A stretch of DNA of 64,000 nt, taken from assembly GCF_001999965.1 (NCBI RefSeq), contig NZ_CP019646.1, forward strand, positions 992,001 through 1,056,000. Reading direction: 5' to 3'. The notes below the pieces were generated by a model. The model searched no databases, was not told the origin of the DNA, and worked only from the letters and a program-made list of their open reading frames with translations. Each line of letters begins with the position of its first letter. Positions within the stretch are counted from its first letter, which is position 1. This DNA comes from Limihaloglobus sulfuriphilus (GTDB lineage: Bacteria > Planctomycetota > Phycisphaerae > Sedimentisphaerales > Sedimentisphaeraceae). Position numbers and translations under genes: made by a program. Below are positions 53,996 to 62,213 of this stretch, one piece after another.

Positions 53996-54460
53996 TTACT
54001 GCCGAAAATCCTTTGGAGTCGCGCCCTGGTCAATGAGCTTGATCTTGTCAACTCGTCTGGCGTGACGTCCGGCTATGAATTCAGATTCGAGCCAGTGTTC
54101 AGTTATTTTCTGAATCAGAAAATCGCCGAGAAGATCGCCTGAAAGACAGAGTATATTAGCATCATTATGCTGGCGGGATATTTTAGCTGTCAGTTCATCG
54201 TAACACAAAGCCGCACGGATGCCCTTCACTTTATTAGCCGTTATGCACATACCGATACCTGTGCCGCAGATAAGTATTGCGCGGTCAGCTTCACCTTGAG
54301 AGACACTGACGGCGGCGGAGTAAGCCAGATCGGGGTAATCGATGGTTTCATCTTTGTCACATCCAATGTCAACGTACTCATGGCCAAGCTGTTTCAGCAA
54401 TGGTTTTATGAGTTCCTTCGCTTTGTATCCTCTGTGATCTGAGGCAATTATAATTTTCAT
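53996..54460 (-). CDS. rpiB: Ribose-5-phosphate isomerase B
   Basis: A 154-residue RpiB/LacAB enzyme. IIASDHRGYKAKELIK holds the N-terminal phosphate and base residues, DYPDLAYSAA and LICGTGIGMCITANK (active-site Cys in ICGTGIG) follow, then AALCYDELTAKISRQHNDANILCLSG. It interconverts ribose 5-phosphate and ribulose 5-phosphate in the non-oxidative pentose phosphate route. The start overlaps the upstream fusion gene by four bases (ATGA). In Bacillus the homologues of these three activities are also clustered (ywlC, ywlE, ywlF). Confidence 0.95.
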   Translation of the reverse strand: MKIIIASDHRGYKAKELIKPLLKQLGHEYVDIGCDKDETIDYPDLAYSAAVSVSQGEADRAILICGTGIGMCITANKVKGIRAALCYDELTAKISRQHNDANILCLSGDLLGDFLIQKITEHWLESEFIAGRHARRVDKIKLIDQGATPKDFRQ

Positions 54461-55581
54461 AGTTCAAGTTCCACAATGCGTTTTTCGAGAGCCCTTATAA
54501 TCTGGGTTGCGCAGTGCCGATACTCCGACATTTCACCCCCGATAGGGTCCTCTATATTTTGTTTTTCAGAAAGCAGCCTGCATTTAGGCGATATTGCCGG
54601 ATAAAAATCCGTAATTCTTTGTCTATCCCGGGCAGTCATTACATAGATCAGGTCACATTTCATTATGTCCGACTCTGTTAATCCGGTAGTTTCATGACGG
54701 CTTAAATCGACGCCGGCTTCACTGCAAACAGCTACGCAGCCGGGACTGGCCGGCTGAGCAACCGGAGCCATTACGCCGCCGGATGATATCTTATATCCGA
54801 AATCTAAAAGCTGGTCAACATCGCATCCAATTTTCCCTGCAAGAATTTTTCTGCAGAAACCTGCCGCCATGGGGCTTCGGCATGTATTGCCGCTGCATAC
54901 GAACATCACATGAAGTCTGGATTTACGTATTATCTCTTCTCGTGTAATGCTTCCCTCACGAAGTATCGAAGGCACAAAATCGGTAAGTTTGACTACTGTA
55001 CTGCTGACTTTATAGCGGCAAGCTCCTGCATCAATAACGGCGGCTATCTTGCCGTTAAAATATTCCATTACTTCTTCAGCGCTGGTTGCCGGCTCACTGT
55101 CGGTAGGATTGGCACTGGTTGCGATGATAGGAGTTTCAGTGTAGGCCAAAAGCCTGGATGTCGTTGAATTATGCGGACATCTAACGCCGACAGTGTTATT
55201 CTTATAAAGGGTATCAACAGCTTTGCTTCCAAGGCTTCTGCGTCTCTCTTCAATGTGGTCATCATCGACATCAAATATAAGCGTAACAGGGCCGGGGAGG
55301 ATATTGTAAATAAGTTTATAGGATCTGAGATTGATCTTCGGGACAAATTCCCTTATTGAAGAGGGGCCTGTTAAATGTATGCTGTAATGCTTGTTAGCGT
55401 CACGATCATTTTTTAGCAGCTCGAGGTTGTCTATTCCGCCGGCTGTAACAGATGCGGCAATTCCGTAAACAGTTTCCGTAGGAACAGCTATAAGCTGGCC
55501 TGAATCGAGCAGTTCAGCCGCATGCTCAAGAGTATCATCATCTTCGGGCCTGCCGGTCATTTTTAGTAATTGTGTATCCAT
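54457..55581 (-). CDS. Sua5/YwlC domain fused to LMW phosphatase (YwlE-like)
   Basis: A 374-residue two-domain protein. Residues about 15-215 are a Sua5/YciO/YrdC domain (LIAVPTETVYGIAA, LPGPVTLIF, VGVRCPHN, IIATSANPTDSEPATSAEEV, STVVKL...ILREGSI), which makes threonylcarbamoyl-AMP for the t6A37 tRNA modification. Residues about 228-370 are a low-molecular-weight phosphatase: P-loop VCSGNTCRSPMA and the catalytic aspartate in IEDPIGG. Thr in GNTC is the residue linked to arginine-phosphate specificity in Bacillus YwlE, whereas tyrosine phosphatases carry Ile. The Sua5 part keeps its KRxx-type lysine region only loosely (NDRDANKHYSIH). Translation of rpiB is coupled by an ATGA overlap. No strong ribosome site is visible. 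Confidence 0.88.
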   Translation of the reverse strand: MDTQLLKMTGRPEDDDTLEHAAELLDSGQLIAVPTETVYGIAASVTAGGIDNLELLKNDRDANKHYSIHLTGPSSIREFVPKINLRSYKLIYNILPGPVTLIFDVDDDHIEERRRSLGSKAVDTLYKNNTVGVRCPHNSTTSRLLAYTETPIIATSANPTDSEPATSAEEVMEYFNGKIAAVIDAGACRYKVSSTVVKLTDFVPSILREGSITREEIIRKSRLHVMFVCSGNTCRSPMAAGFCRKILAGKIGCDVDQLLDFGYKISSGGVMAPVAQPASPGCVAVCSEAGVDLSRHETTGLTESDIMKCDLIYVMTARDRQRITDFYPAISPKCRLLSEKQNIEDPIGGEMSEYRHCATQIIRALEKRIVELEL

Positions 55582-56398: not shown

Positions 56399-56668
56399 TT
56401 ACTCATCGGCTCTGGCTTGTGCTAAACAGCGTTTTATGAATTCACTCTTTGCATCTGTGTATCTTTCCCTTTCTTTTTTATATACCTCTGAAAGCCGCAA
56501 CTTGAGCGGACTATACTCCCGGGCCGCACTATTATTGGCTTTTAAATAATCTCTGAAAATAATTCCCTGCCAAAGCCTGTGCCCGGGTAATGCCGCATGG
56601 ATATGATGAGTCCGTCTGCCAAGAAAATTATCTCTTTTTATGAAAATCATATGGTCATCAGCGGCCAT
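56399..56668 (-). pseudogene. GrpB (UPF0157) family remnant, C-terminal part
   Basis: The 89-codon frame carries the C-terminal half of a GrpB-family protein, a nucleotidyltransferase-like fold of unknown substrate: FIKRDNFLGRRTHHIHAALPGH, FRDYLKANNSAAREYSPLKLRL, ERYTDAKSEFIKRCL. Intact GrpB proteins are about 170 residues. The matching N-terminal start (IEITEYNPQWP) is in the other frame at the end of the adjacent upstream gene, so roughly the middle half of GrpB has been deleted and the frame broken. Confidence 0.7.
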
Positions 56669-57072
56669 TGGGGATTATATTCAGTTATTTCAATTCCATC
56701 ATCAGGCTCTTTACCTGCCTGTGACCACATGTTGGCTGTCATTTTATATGTATTTGAGGTGTTTATCCGGTGGAATTCTCCTGTTTCCCCGTTTTCTGAT
56801 TTGCTGTGCCATTTCCAGACAATATTATCGGACGTTGACTTGCCGTTTTGTCTGGTAATTTTGATTTGATTGTCTGATATCTGCCATGTTTCCAGGTTTA
56901 ATTTTTCGGCCTCATCCGTTGTAACTGTTTCTATACCAATGAAATATGTCGTTAAATTCTCGCTTATATCACTGCAGAACCCAACATATCTGGTGCTTAC
57001 GTGATTTCTAATTTCCAGCTTCTTCAACAATCCGAAAGCAGTCTTGTAAAAATCGGTCAAATCCGCAGCCAT
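56647..57072 (-). CDS. Hypothetical protein ending in the N-terminus of a broken GrpB
   Basis: A 141-codon frame. The first 110 residues (MAADLTDFYKTAFGLL... WSQAGKEP) show a small mixed alpha/beta protein with STRYVGFCSDIS, TTYFIGIETV and IVWKWHSK; this vaguely recalls effector-binding (GyrI-like) domains, but I do not recognise it. The last 15 residues (IEITEYNPQWPLMTI) are the typical start of GrpB, after which the frame stops. The open frame extends upstream without a clear start, and no signal peptide or ribosome site supports a particular ATG. Probably part of a decayed fused gene. Confidence 0.45.
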   Translation of the reverse strand: MAADLTDFYKTAFGLLKKLEIRNHVSTRYVGFCSDISENLTTYFIGIETVTTDEAEKLNLETWQISDNQIKITRQNGKSTSDNIVWKWHSKSENGETGEFHRINTSNTYKMTANMWSQAGKEPDDGIEITEYNPQWPLMTI

Positions 57073-59314: not shown

Positions 59315-61453
59315 ATGAAACCATTAAAAAGATTATTAGATTATGTCTGGCCACAGTGGCCGCGTCTTGCAGTTCTGGGTGTCTGCGTGATTGTAATAGC
59401 TGTCTTTACGGCGGCGAGCTTTCTTACGATTATCCCGCTGCTTAAGACCATGATGAGCAGAGAAGGCATTCACGGCTGGGTAGATAGCAAACTCTGTGAA
59501 ACACGCTACGGGATGGACCTTTATATGCCGGATGTCATTGACATTAGCTCAGATGAGAATCTTGCGTATTTTTTAACAGTAATATCCGTTGAAGACGACT
59601 CAGCGGCTGACTTGGCCGGCATTGAACCCGGCGACAGCATCGTCAAGGCAGCAGACGGCGAACATGACGCCGAAGCGAGAATGACATCTGCCAGGATGCT
59701 TGAGATACTAAGCCGGGCTCCGGAAAATCGGGATATAGAGTTAGAAATACTGCGGAAAACTCCAGATGGCCATATTGGCAGAGATCCCATTAAGATATCA
59801 ATGGATACTTCTAAAGTCCCTTTCTATTACGGTACCGTAGTAAGCCTGATGAATTATGTCACCAGGGAAAATTCAGAAAAAGTAAAAATACGTGCGATAC
59901 AGCTGGTTCTGCTTTTCGCTCTCGCGGCAACAATGTTTAGATGTGTGGCGAGGTTTTTCCAGGACTACATTGCGCATAAGATTGTCAACATCGCCCTAAA
60001 CCTGTTGCGAAATGATTGTTACAAGCATATCCTGAGAATGCCTGAAAGCTTCTTTGACAAACAGGGCAGAACTGATTTTGCCAGCAGGCTCGTCAAAGAC
60101 ACAGAGGCTGCCGGCGCAGGAGTAAAAGTACTTCTAACCAAGGCAATAAGAGAGCCGGCAAAGGCCATCGCAACTCTCGCCGCCGCCCTTCTGCTTCATT
60201 GGCAGATTGTAGTAGTTTTTCTGCTTGCATCACCATTTGTAGGAATTGTAGTACAGAGACTTGGCAAAAAAATCAAAAAAGCCACCCGCCGCTCTCTGGT
60301 AGAATGGTCTAATATGCTTACAAAGATTGAGGATACAACTACCGGTTTGCGGGCTGTAAAGGTTTACAACAAACAGGGATATGAAAATATACGTTTTCAG
60401 AAAATCAACTCCAGTCTGCTCAAACAGCAGATGAAAATAGCCAAAATCACAGCCGCGACAAGCCCCCTGCTTGAAATACTGGGAATGATCGCGGGCCTGT
60501 TTGCACTGCTTTTTGCCTTAAATTATGTAATTGAAGGCCACCTGGAGCCTGAAAAATTCTTCACTCTTATCATTCTGCTTGGCACATCAGCCGAGTCAGT
60601 CCGCAAAAGCAGCAATACCTGGAACCGCCTGCAGGAATCCAACGCCGCGATATCAAGAGTATTTCATATTCTTGACTCCCCTCTTGAGAAAGACTGCGAA
60701 AATCCGAAAAAACTCAAAGGTTTAAAAGAGTCTATTGAATTCCGAAATATCTCTTTCGCGTATCCTGCTTCTGAAACGAATGTTTTGAATAATCTTAATC
60801 TGTCCATAAAAGTCGGCAGCAAAGTCGCGATCGTCGGCCACAACGGCTCGGGCAAGACAACCCTGCTGAATCTTTTACCCAGGTTCTATGATCCGCAAAG
60901 CGGCCAGGTGCTTTTTGACGGGCAGGATATAAGCAAAGTCAGCCTGGCGGAGCTTCGTTCCAAAATAGCCGTTGTATCTCAGAAAACTATTACCTTTAAT
61001 GACACCATTTTTAACAACATCGCATACGGCAAAGACAACGCTACAGAACAGGAAGTAATTGAAGCCGCACAACAGGCTTATGCACATGAGTTTATCGACA
61101 TTCTGCCGGATAAATACAATTCGTTTATCGGCCAGGACGGCGCAGGACTAAGCGGCGGCCAGCTTCAGCGAATTGTTATAGCAAGAGCTATTCTTAAAAA
61201 ACCGCAGATTCTGATTTTCGATGAAGCCATGAGCCAGGTTGACGCCGACAGCGAATCCAAAATATACAAGGCACTCGAAGAAATGACGCATGATCGTACA
61301 AGTTTTGTCATTGCTCACAGGTTTTCTACGGTTGTGAATTCAGACCTTATAATAGTAATGAAGGATGGTTCAATCGAAGATCAGGGCAGCCACGAAGACT
61401 TGATGCAGCGGAGTGATACTTACAGAAAATTATATACAACTCAATTACTGTAA
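59315..61453 (+). CDS. MsbA-like ABC exporter with a PDZ-like domain in the first periplasmic loop
   Basis: A 712-residue half-transporter. Helix 1 (about 18-40) is followed by a 150-residue periplasmic insert, then helices 2-6 (about 192-440) and the nucleotide-binding domain (470-712). The insert holds a PDZ-like fold (about 83-163): VEDDSAADLAGIEPGDSIVKAADG and VIELEI-type strands ending IELEILRK. The ATPase has Walker A GHNGSGKTT (508-516), signature LSGGQLQR (612-619), Walker B ILIFDE (632-637), an H-loop in IAHRFST and a D-loop SQVD instead of SALD. MsbA exporters flip lipid A core or similar lipids. PDZ domains bind protein C-termini. The PDZ could recruit a periplasmic partner; this is inference. 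It is followed by a HAD hydrolase eight bases away. Confidence 0.9.
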   Translation: MKPLKRLLDYVWPQWPRLAVLGVCVIVIAVFTAASFLTIIPLLKTMMSREGIHGWVDSKLCETRYGMDLYMPDVIDISSDENLAYFLTVISVEDDSAADLAGIEPGDSIVKAADGEHDAEARMTSARMLEILSRAPENRDIELEILRKTPDGHIGRDPIKISMDTSKVPFYYGTVVSLMNYVTRENSEKVKIRAIQLVLLFALAATMFRCVARFFQDYIAHKIVNIALNLLRNDCYKHILRMPESFFDKQGRTDFASRLVKDTEAAGAGVKVLLTKAIREPAKAIATLAAALLLHWQIVVVFLLASPFVGIVVQRLGKKIKKATRRSLVEWSNMLTKIEDTTTGLRAVKVYNKQGYENIRFQKINSSLLKQQMKIAKITAATSPLLEILGMIAGLFALLFALNYVIEGHLEPEKFFTLIILLGTSAESVRKSSNTWNRLQESNAAISRVFHILDSPLEKDCENPKKLKGLKESIEFRNISFAYPASETNVLNNLNLSIKVGSKVAIVGHNGSGKTTLLNLLPRFYDPQSGQVLFDGQDISKVSLAELRSKIAVVSQKTITFNDTIFNNIAYGKDNATEQEVIEAAQQAYAHEFIDILPDKYNSFIGQDGAGLSGGQLQRIVIARAILKKPQILIFDEAMSQVDADSESKIYKALEEMTHDRTSFVIAHRFSTVVNSDLIIVMKDGSIEDQGSHEDLMQRSDTYRKLYTTQLL

Positions 61454-61460
61454 AAGATTT

Positions 61461-62213
61461 ATGGCTTCTAACAACATAAAAGCGGTGTTCTTCGACCTTG
61501 GAGAAACTATCTTTAATTACGGAGACTTTGATAAAACCAAAGCTATCAAACAAGCGGCAAGCTTAAGCTATGATTATCTTGCAGACATCAGCCAGCCGAC
61601 AGGGACGTTTTTGAGATATTTTCTTCGCCATTTAATCGAAATTCGTTTGAGATATGTATGGTCAGAATGGACCGGCAGAGAATTTAACTCGCTGGATGTC
61701 ATGAAAAACCGAGGCGCCAGGAAAGGGTACCACTTAACTGAGGAGCAATGGTCTCATTTCCATTGGTTATGGTACAAACCTCTAAGCGAAATATGTGAAA
61801 TTGAACATGATTTGCCCCAGACCCTTGATAAGCTCACAAATATGGGCCTTAAACTGGGCATAATTTCAAACACGTTTATTAACGGCTGTTCGCTTGACAG
61901 GCATTTGGAAAGTTTTGGAATTCTTCATTATTTCCCAATACGCGTTTATTCATGCTCTTTAGGCATAAGAAAACCGCATCCTGAGATATTTAGGTATGCC
62001 GCCCGGCAGGCAAAGCTCGACATCAACCAGATCGTGTATGTAGGCGACAGAATTGATTTTGATGTTATAGGTTCATCAAAAGCAGGCATGAATCCCGTTC
62101 TAAAACGTGCATTTTCAAGTAAAAACAAAAGCATCCCTGCTGGAACGTTTGCAATTGACAGGCTCTCAGAGTTGCCGGGATTGCTGGAAAGTGCAGTTTT
62201 TAATTCAGATTAG
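61461..62213 (+). CDS. HAD superfamily hydrolase
   Basis: A 250-residue hydrolase from the ATG at 61461, eight bases after the exporter stop; an in-frame ATG at 61413 lies inside the exporter. Motif I is VFFDLGETI (the second Asp is Gly, as in several HAD subgroups), motif II IISNT, motif III lysine in IRKPHPEIF and motif IV VGDRIDFDVIGS. The inserted helical cap (about 20-110) is rich in aromatic residues. It probably dephosphorylates a small molecule; the tight link to a lipid exporter suggests an envelope precursor, which is inference only. Confidence 0.85.
   Translation: MASNNIKAVFFDLGETIFNYGDFDKTKAIKQAASLSYDYLADISQPTGTFLRYFLRHLIEIRLRYVWSEWTGREFNSLDVMKNRGARKGYHLTEEQWSHFHWLWYKPLSEICEIEHDLPQTLDKLTNMGLKLGIISNTFINGCSLDRHLESFGILHYFPIRVYSCSLGIRKPHPEIFRYAARQAKLDINQIVYVGDRIDFDVIGSSKAGMNPVLKRAFSSKNKSIPAGTFAIDRLSELPGLLESAVFNSD

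Follow-up and report, generated by a model that had tools for sequence, protein, structure and literature searches.

The window, a 64,000-nucleotide stretch of the Limihaloglobus sulfuriphilus genome, encodes an MsbA-like ABC half-transporter with a PDZ domain inserted between transmembrane helices 1 and 2. That a PDZ domain occupies the first periplasmic loop of this exporter had been proposed in an earlier note made from the DNA sequence, and the proposal is confirmed by profile search, AlphaFold2 prediction, structural matches, and conservation among orthologues. The architecture is conserved in most sampled families of the class Phycisphaerae, sometimes in degenerate form. No PDZ domain in an MsbA-type or other ABC exporter was found described in the open-access literature searched. 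For envelope proteins, the domain might be a docking site on the pump or a means of controlling it.

Position and fold of the inserted domain

The features of the exporter gene are as follows (window coordinates).
59315..61453, + strand: MsbA-like ABC half-transporter with inserted PDZ domain, 712 aa plus stop
59318..59455, + strand: cytoplasmic elbow and TM helix 1, residues 2-47 (AlphaFold2 helices 2-37 and 39-47)
59465..59509, + strand: conserved external helix, consensus EGLHGWVDRK, residues 51-65 (AlphaFold2 and orthologue alignment A1)
59498..59812, + strand: PDZ domain, residues ~62-166, with strands 67-70, 87-92, 108-113, 140-146, and 159-164 and helices 97-100 and 125-133 (profile search, AlphaFold2, structural matches, profile-profile alignment)
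59504..59515, + strand: X-Phi-G-Phi carboxylate-binding loop R64-Y65-G66-M67 (orthologue conservation, profile-profile alignment)
59684..59716, + strand: helix alpha-B, second groove wall, residues 124-134 (AlphaFold2, column conservation)
59828..59854, + strand: short second external helix leading back towards the membrane, residues 172-180 (AlphaFold2)
59876..60673, + strand: TM2-TM6 of the exporter, residues 188-453 (ABC_membrane PF00664, E 7.5e-33 from residue 182; AlphaFold2)
60731..61450, + strand: nucleotide-binding domain (NBD), residues 473-712 (ABC_tran PF00005, E 1.5e-33)
61232..61243, + strand: D-loop SQVD, residues 640-643 (SQ[VI]D across the clade)

The protein has the composition of an ABC exporter of the MsbA fold, with ABC_membrane and ABC_tran domains, Walker A (GHNGSGKTT), signature (LSGGQLQR), Walker B, and H-loop. 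In the full-length AlphaFold2 model (mean pLDDT 74), the PDZ domain lies between TM1 (2-47) and TM2 (188-240), a loop that is extracytoplasmic in the MsbA-type exporter fold, and is framed by the external helices 51-65 and 172-180. The first of these is predicted to run straight into the carboxylate loop, and E50 and G51 are invariant in the alignment of exporter orthologues (A1).

Standard annotation overlooks this domain because its Pfam scores fall just below the cut-offs. Searched as a single sequence, the whole protein matched PDZ_2 at residues 87-148 with a sub-threshold E-value of 2.5e-4, the 93-aa insert alone reached E 1.5e-5 (25.6 bits vs. a cut-off of 27), and none of nine orthologues had a PDZ model at cut-off (nearest 26.8 vs. 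27). Such scores would suit an unstructured or unrelated loop with an accidental PDZ-like motif, but this explanation is scarcely credible in view of the remaining evidence. A profile built from 20 orthologous inserts (A2) matched 290 sequences of the PDB at E <= 1; the 60 best among these 290 were PDZ-containing proteins, headed by the PDZ tandem of the Aquifex aeolicus RseP homologue (1.1e-9) and DegP (2e-9) and including DegQ, AlgW, DegS, and GRASP among the further matches. Residues 48-184 were predicted by AlphaFold2 to adopt a PDZ fold at high confidence (mean pLDDT 88.7, pTM 0.83, core blocks up to 97). Each of the 50 structural matches listed by VIA was a PDZ-containing protein, of HtrA/Ctp type or another kind (Z 8.3-9.4 over 83-98 residues; for the top row, rmsd 2.7 over 90 residues), and the matches listed by Foldseek for the insert model included HtrA and Ctp proteases at E about 1e-4. 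Finally, hhalign against HtrA-type PDZ domains of other planctomycete loci gave a probability of 97.6. The PDZ match is thus far above chance, and the identity of the domain is supported by profile search, predicted fold, and class-wide conservation.

The boundaries and internal assignments of the earlier note need revision. Its insert at residues 83-163 is real, but profile search, structure prediction, and profile-profile alignment place the PDZ domain at ~62-166, so that it begins near residue 62 (nt ~59498). The stretch VEDDSAADLAGIEPGDSI, to which carboxylate binding had been attributed, is present in frame but forms the strand/alpha-A/GD-turn region; the carboxylate-binding loop is R64-Y-G-M67, further upstream. 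This RYGM (64-67) has the X-Phi-G-Phi pattern, and hhalign sets RYGMDL opposite WLGLEV (PWLGLEV in the HtrA-type PDZ), with low alignment confidence for the opposing loop.

Distribution among planctomycetes and beyond

Within the order, one full-length ORF was found in 55 of 59 genomes, aligning from residue 1-7 to 710-712 of the window protein, and two more genomes contain an ORF split at contig ends. These orthologues are 37-51% identical to the window protein (itself excluded), and 19 full-length relatives align across the entire insert. Neither of the outcomes that would have spoken against the domain, an unrelated or disordered loop or the loss of the insert from close orthologues, was observed, and retention of the insert in orthologues from several Planctomycetota is evident at the profile level. 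When the phylum was searched with just the first 192 residues of the window protein, few matches outside the order were obtained, and a profile was required. With this N-terminal profile, 221 of 248 genomes of the class had a match at E <= 0.001, a count that includes HtrA-only matches, which, mostly weak, make up most of those in the class families f8-f11. Loci of further class families carry an insert with an R-x-G-Phi pattern, some of these inserts being well formed (L187, L189). Some Phycisphaerae (L016, L017, L183, L186) have a degenerate PDZ domain. Weak class- and phylum-level matches that covered profile positions of about 83-165 and lay in ORFs of a different length were discarded, as these ORFs encode separate HtrA-type or other PDZ proteins and not exporters.

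In other planctomycete classes, the best matches to the N-terminal profile cover just about residues 2-70. As judged from sequence, the MsbA-like exporters at most of these loci (L156-L165, L167, and L169) have a charged helical, coiled-coil-like TM1-TM2 insert in place of the PDZ domain, and those at L166 and L174 have no insert. Among planctomycete MsbA homologues, the TM1-TM2 loop is thus a site that hosts unrelated extracytoplasmic domains, namely a PDZ domain in Phycisphaerae and a helical insert in members of other classes that were sampled. No PDZ-bearing exporter was found in 200 genomes of another phylum (that of genome G545) or in eight genomes of varied phyla, where matches were limited to the PDZ positions and located in shorter ORFs.

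The D-loop also follows phylogeny. The earlier note had listed SQVD in place of SALD as a second oddity of this protein, but each of the 51 planctomycete orthologues scored has either SQVD or SQID, as against SALD in 50 of 59 relatives outside the phylum. Most further members of the class share SQ[VI]D, and one has SNID. The SQ[VI]D D-loop is a lineage trait rather than an individual peculiarity.

Transporter type and the link to lipid A

Of the NCBIfam models, TIGR02203 (MsbA) fits the window protein best, and it also matches 20 of 20 orthologue members. The score of 454.6 bits lies below the curated cut-off of 602, and a lipid A substrate is therefore not proven by this match. A paralogue without the insert (G000:C1:386467-388056) scores 442 with TIGR02203 and has MsbA_rel as its best model. 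Among PDB structures, MsbA has the best score for a single half and also takes the top Foldseek ranks; P-glycoprotein heads the PDB list, a rank that it owes solely to the counting of its two halves, and was rejected as the closest relative.

Gene neighborhoods provide a link to lipid A. In relatives, the exporter gene follows lpxD, lpxC-fabZ, lpxA, and a gene for a GFO/IDH oxidoreductase at locus L006, and it is close to lpxB at L011. At L003 it is located upstream of two Kdo/WaaP-type kinase genes, and at L002, L007, and L009 it is preceded by rfb-type sugar genes, identified by sequence resemblance only. In the window genome, the exporter gene does not adjoin lpx genes, and LpxC, LpxK, and LptF/G are encoded there. 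LpxK was found in 21 of 21 genomes searched, and in Planctopirus limnophila, another planctomycete, the genes for lipid A are essential (PMC10632474). Because lipid A genes neighbor the exporter gene in relatives, we consider the exporter to be probably a lipid A/LPS-core flippase. Transport of another glycolipid, such as an O-antigen-like or other surface glycan, would fit the sub-threshold TIGR02203 score and the glycosyltransferase-like genes downstream of the exporter gene at L004, L005, L006, and L011 (Pfam-tested for L006 only). We regard this as unlikely, as the full-length orthologue is near-universal in the order, lpx neighbors occur in relatives, MsbA is the best match among single-half structures, and LpxK is present in every genome searched.

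Several other genes were noted during this analysis. An LptF/LptG-family permease (L203 1483-3063; G000:C1:431218-432747) has a family-model match that is interrupted in the periplasmic part by roughly 200 residues, so an additional extracytoplasmic insert may be present in this LPS-export permease too. In the window, the gene at 54457-55581 (-) encodes a fusion protein whose Sua5/YrdC tRNA-modification domain precedes a low-molecular-weight phosphatase domain, and it adjoins rpiB (53996-54460). An intergenic ORF of 141 aa at 56647-57072 (-) has no Pfam match at E 1e-5, and a DDE-type transposase (PF01609; 62381-63871, -) marks an insertion element close downstream of a HAD-type hydrolase gene (61413-62213).

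Possible roles of the PDZ domain and comparison with known systems

Among 45 orthologues, identity to the window protein is 26% for the PDZ domain, 42% for the transmembrane domain (TMD), and 57% for the NBD. The carboxylate loop is retained in most of them (R in 39/45, Y in 36/45, and G in 35/45), and by resampling, the columns of the loop, beta-B, and alpha-B are more conserved than random sets of PDZ columns, with groove conservation equalled in 0 of 20000 resamples for the near set and 6 of 20000 for all 45 orthologues. In this alignment, conservation within the domain is highest in the carboxylate loop and helix alpha-B, the predicted walls of the groove. Part of the loop conservation may be structural, since the loop adjoins the conserved external helix, and the pattern is suggestive rather than conclusive of a working peptide groove.

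An explanation to which we give about even chances is that an MsbA-type lipid A/LPS-core flippase of the Phycisphaerae carries an HtrA-type PDZ domain that binds the C-terminus of an envelope protein and thereby docks a partner or tunes the transport cycle. We infer that the homodimer would display two PDZ domains on the periplasmic face, over the outward-facing cavity, and that the external helix leading straight into the carboxylate loop would connect each of them to TM1. The groove would bind a free protein C-terminus, and the bound protein could dock a partner near the flippase exit or stimulate or restrain the transport cycle. A candidate class of ligands is suggested by analogy with the PDZ domains of AlgW and DegS, which bind the C-termini of outer-membrane proteins (OMPs) (PMC8545111); hydrophobic OMP C-termini as ligands would couple lipid A export to OMP traffic. 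DegS/AlgW, like BmrCD discussed below, serve here as precedents and not as evidence of membership. The exporter's own hydrophobic C-terminus was ruled out as a ligand in cis because it is cytoplasmic. The insert is acidic (median pI 4.8 in orthologues, 4.2 in the window protein), which disfavors direct binding to lipid A phosphates.

The main rival to peptide binding, possible but clearly less probable in our estimate, is that the role of the PDZ fold is structural: as a cap or gate, it would shape how the substrate leaves and how the ATPase is stimulated, and would bind no peptide ends. In BmrCD, an extracellular domain anchored via TM1/TM2 of BmrD caps the TMD, and substrate stimulation is lost when this domain is deleted (PMC10632425). 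The coiled-coil-like insert at the same site in sampled members of other planctomycete classes implies that the TM1-TM2 site tolerates unrelated bulk, and the degenerate PDZ domains in some families speak against a peptide ligand that is indispensable everywhere. A pure cap is, in turn, less easily reconciled with groove walls, including the X-Phi-G-Phi loop, that are the best conserved PDZ parts.

As a special case of the peptide-binding explanation, the PDZ domain might dock the C-terminus of a periplasmic lipid- or LPS-handling protein (Lpt-type or a lipoprotein), so that flipped lipid A would be handed on directly. The position of the domain at the exit side of the transporter, the lipid A and LPS-core gene neighbors, and the presence of LptF/G in the window genome agree with such a hand-over, but no partner gene is conserved beside the exporter gene in all relatives, and we consider it improbable. 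Still less probable is that the PDZ domain is an on-board sensor of the C-termini of outer-membrane or other envelope proteins that gates LPS export. If true, it would couple both supply lines of the outer membrane within one protein. The means by which diderm bacteria coordinate lipopolysaccharide export with the assembly of outer-membrane proteins are not settled, and separate stress pathways are the usual explanation. With its PDZ domain on the periplasmic face, the probable lipid A flippase offers a single-protein route to such coordination, and as an isolated domain that is predicted to be well folded, the PDZ domain makes this route testable.

Compared to known systems, the window exporter most resembles MsbA (TIGR02203) in its half-transporter fold, NBD motifs, best family model, and best single-half PDB relative, as well as in the lpx gene neighbors found in relatives of the window genome. 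It differs from MsbA by the PDZ insert of about 105 residues between TM1 and TM2, the SQ[VI]D D-loop in place of SALD, and a score below the equivalog cut-off. In the Campylobacter flippase PglK, external helices lie between TM1 and TM2. These helices are on the extracytoplasmic side of this transporter of lipid-linked glycans (PMC5395944), as in the window exporter, but there is no globular domain between them in PglK. BmrCD of Bacillus, likened here by description, also has an extracytoplasmic domain that caps an ABC exporter and is anchored via TM1/TM2 (PMC10632425), but is a heterodimer. The PDZ domain itself shares its fold, the X-Phi-G-Phi loop, and the spA..aGL..GD.I motif with those of HtrA-type proteases (DegS, AlgW, DegP, DegQ, and HtrA2) and of RseP and Ctp, and differs from the HtrA-type domains by residing in the loop of an ABC exporter, free of any attached protease domain.
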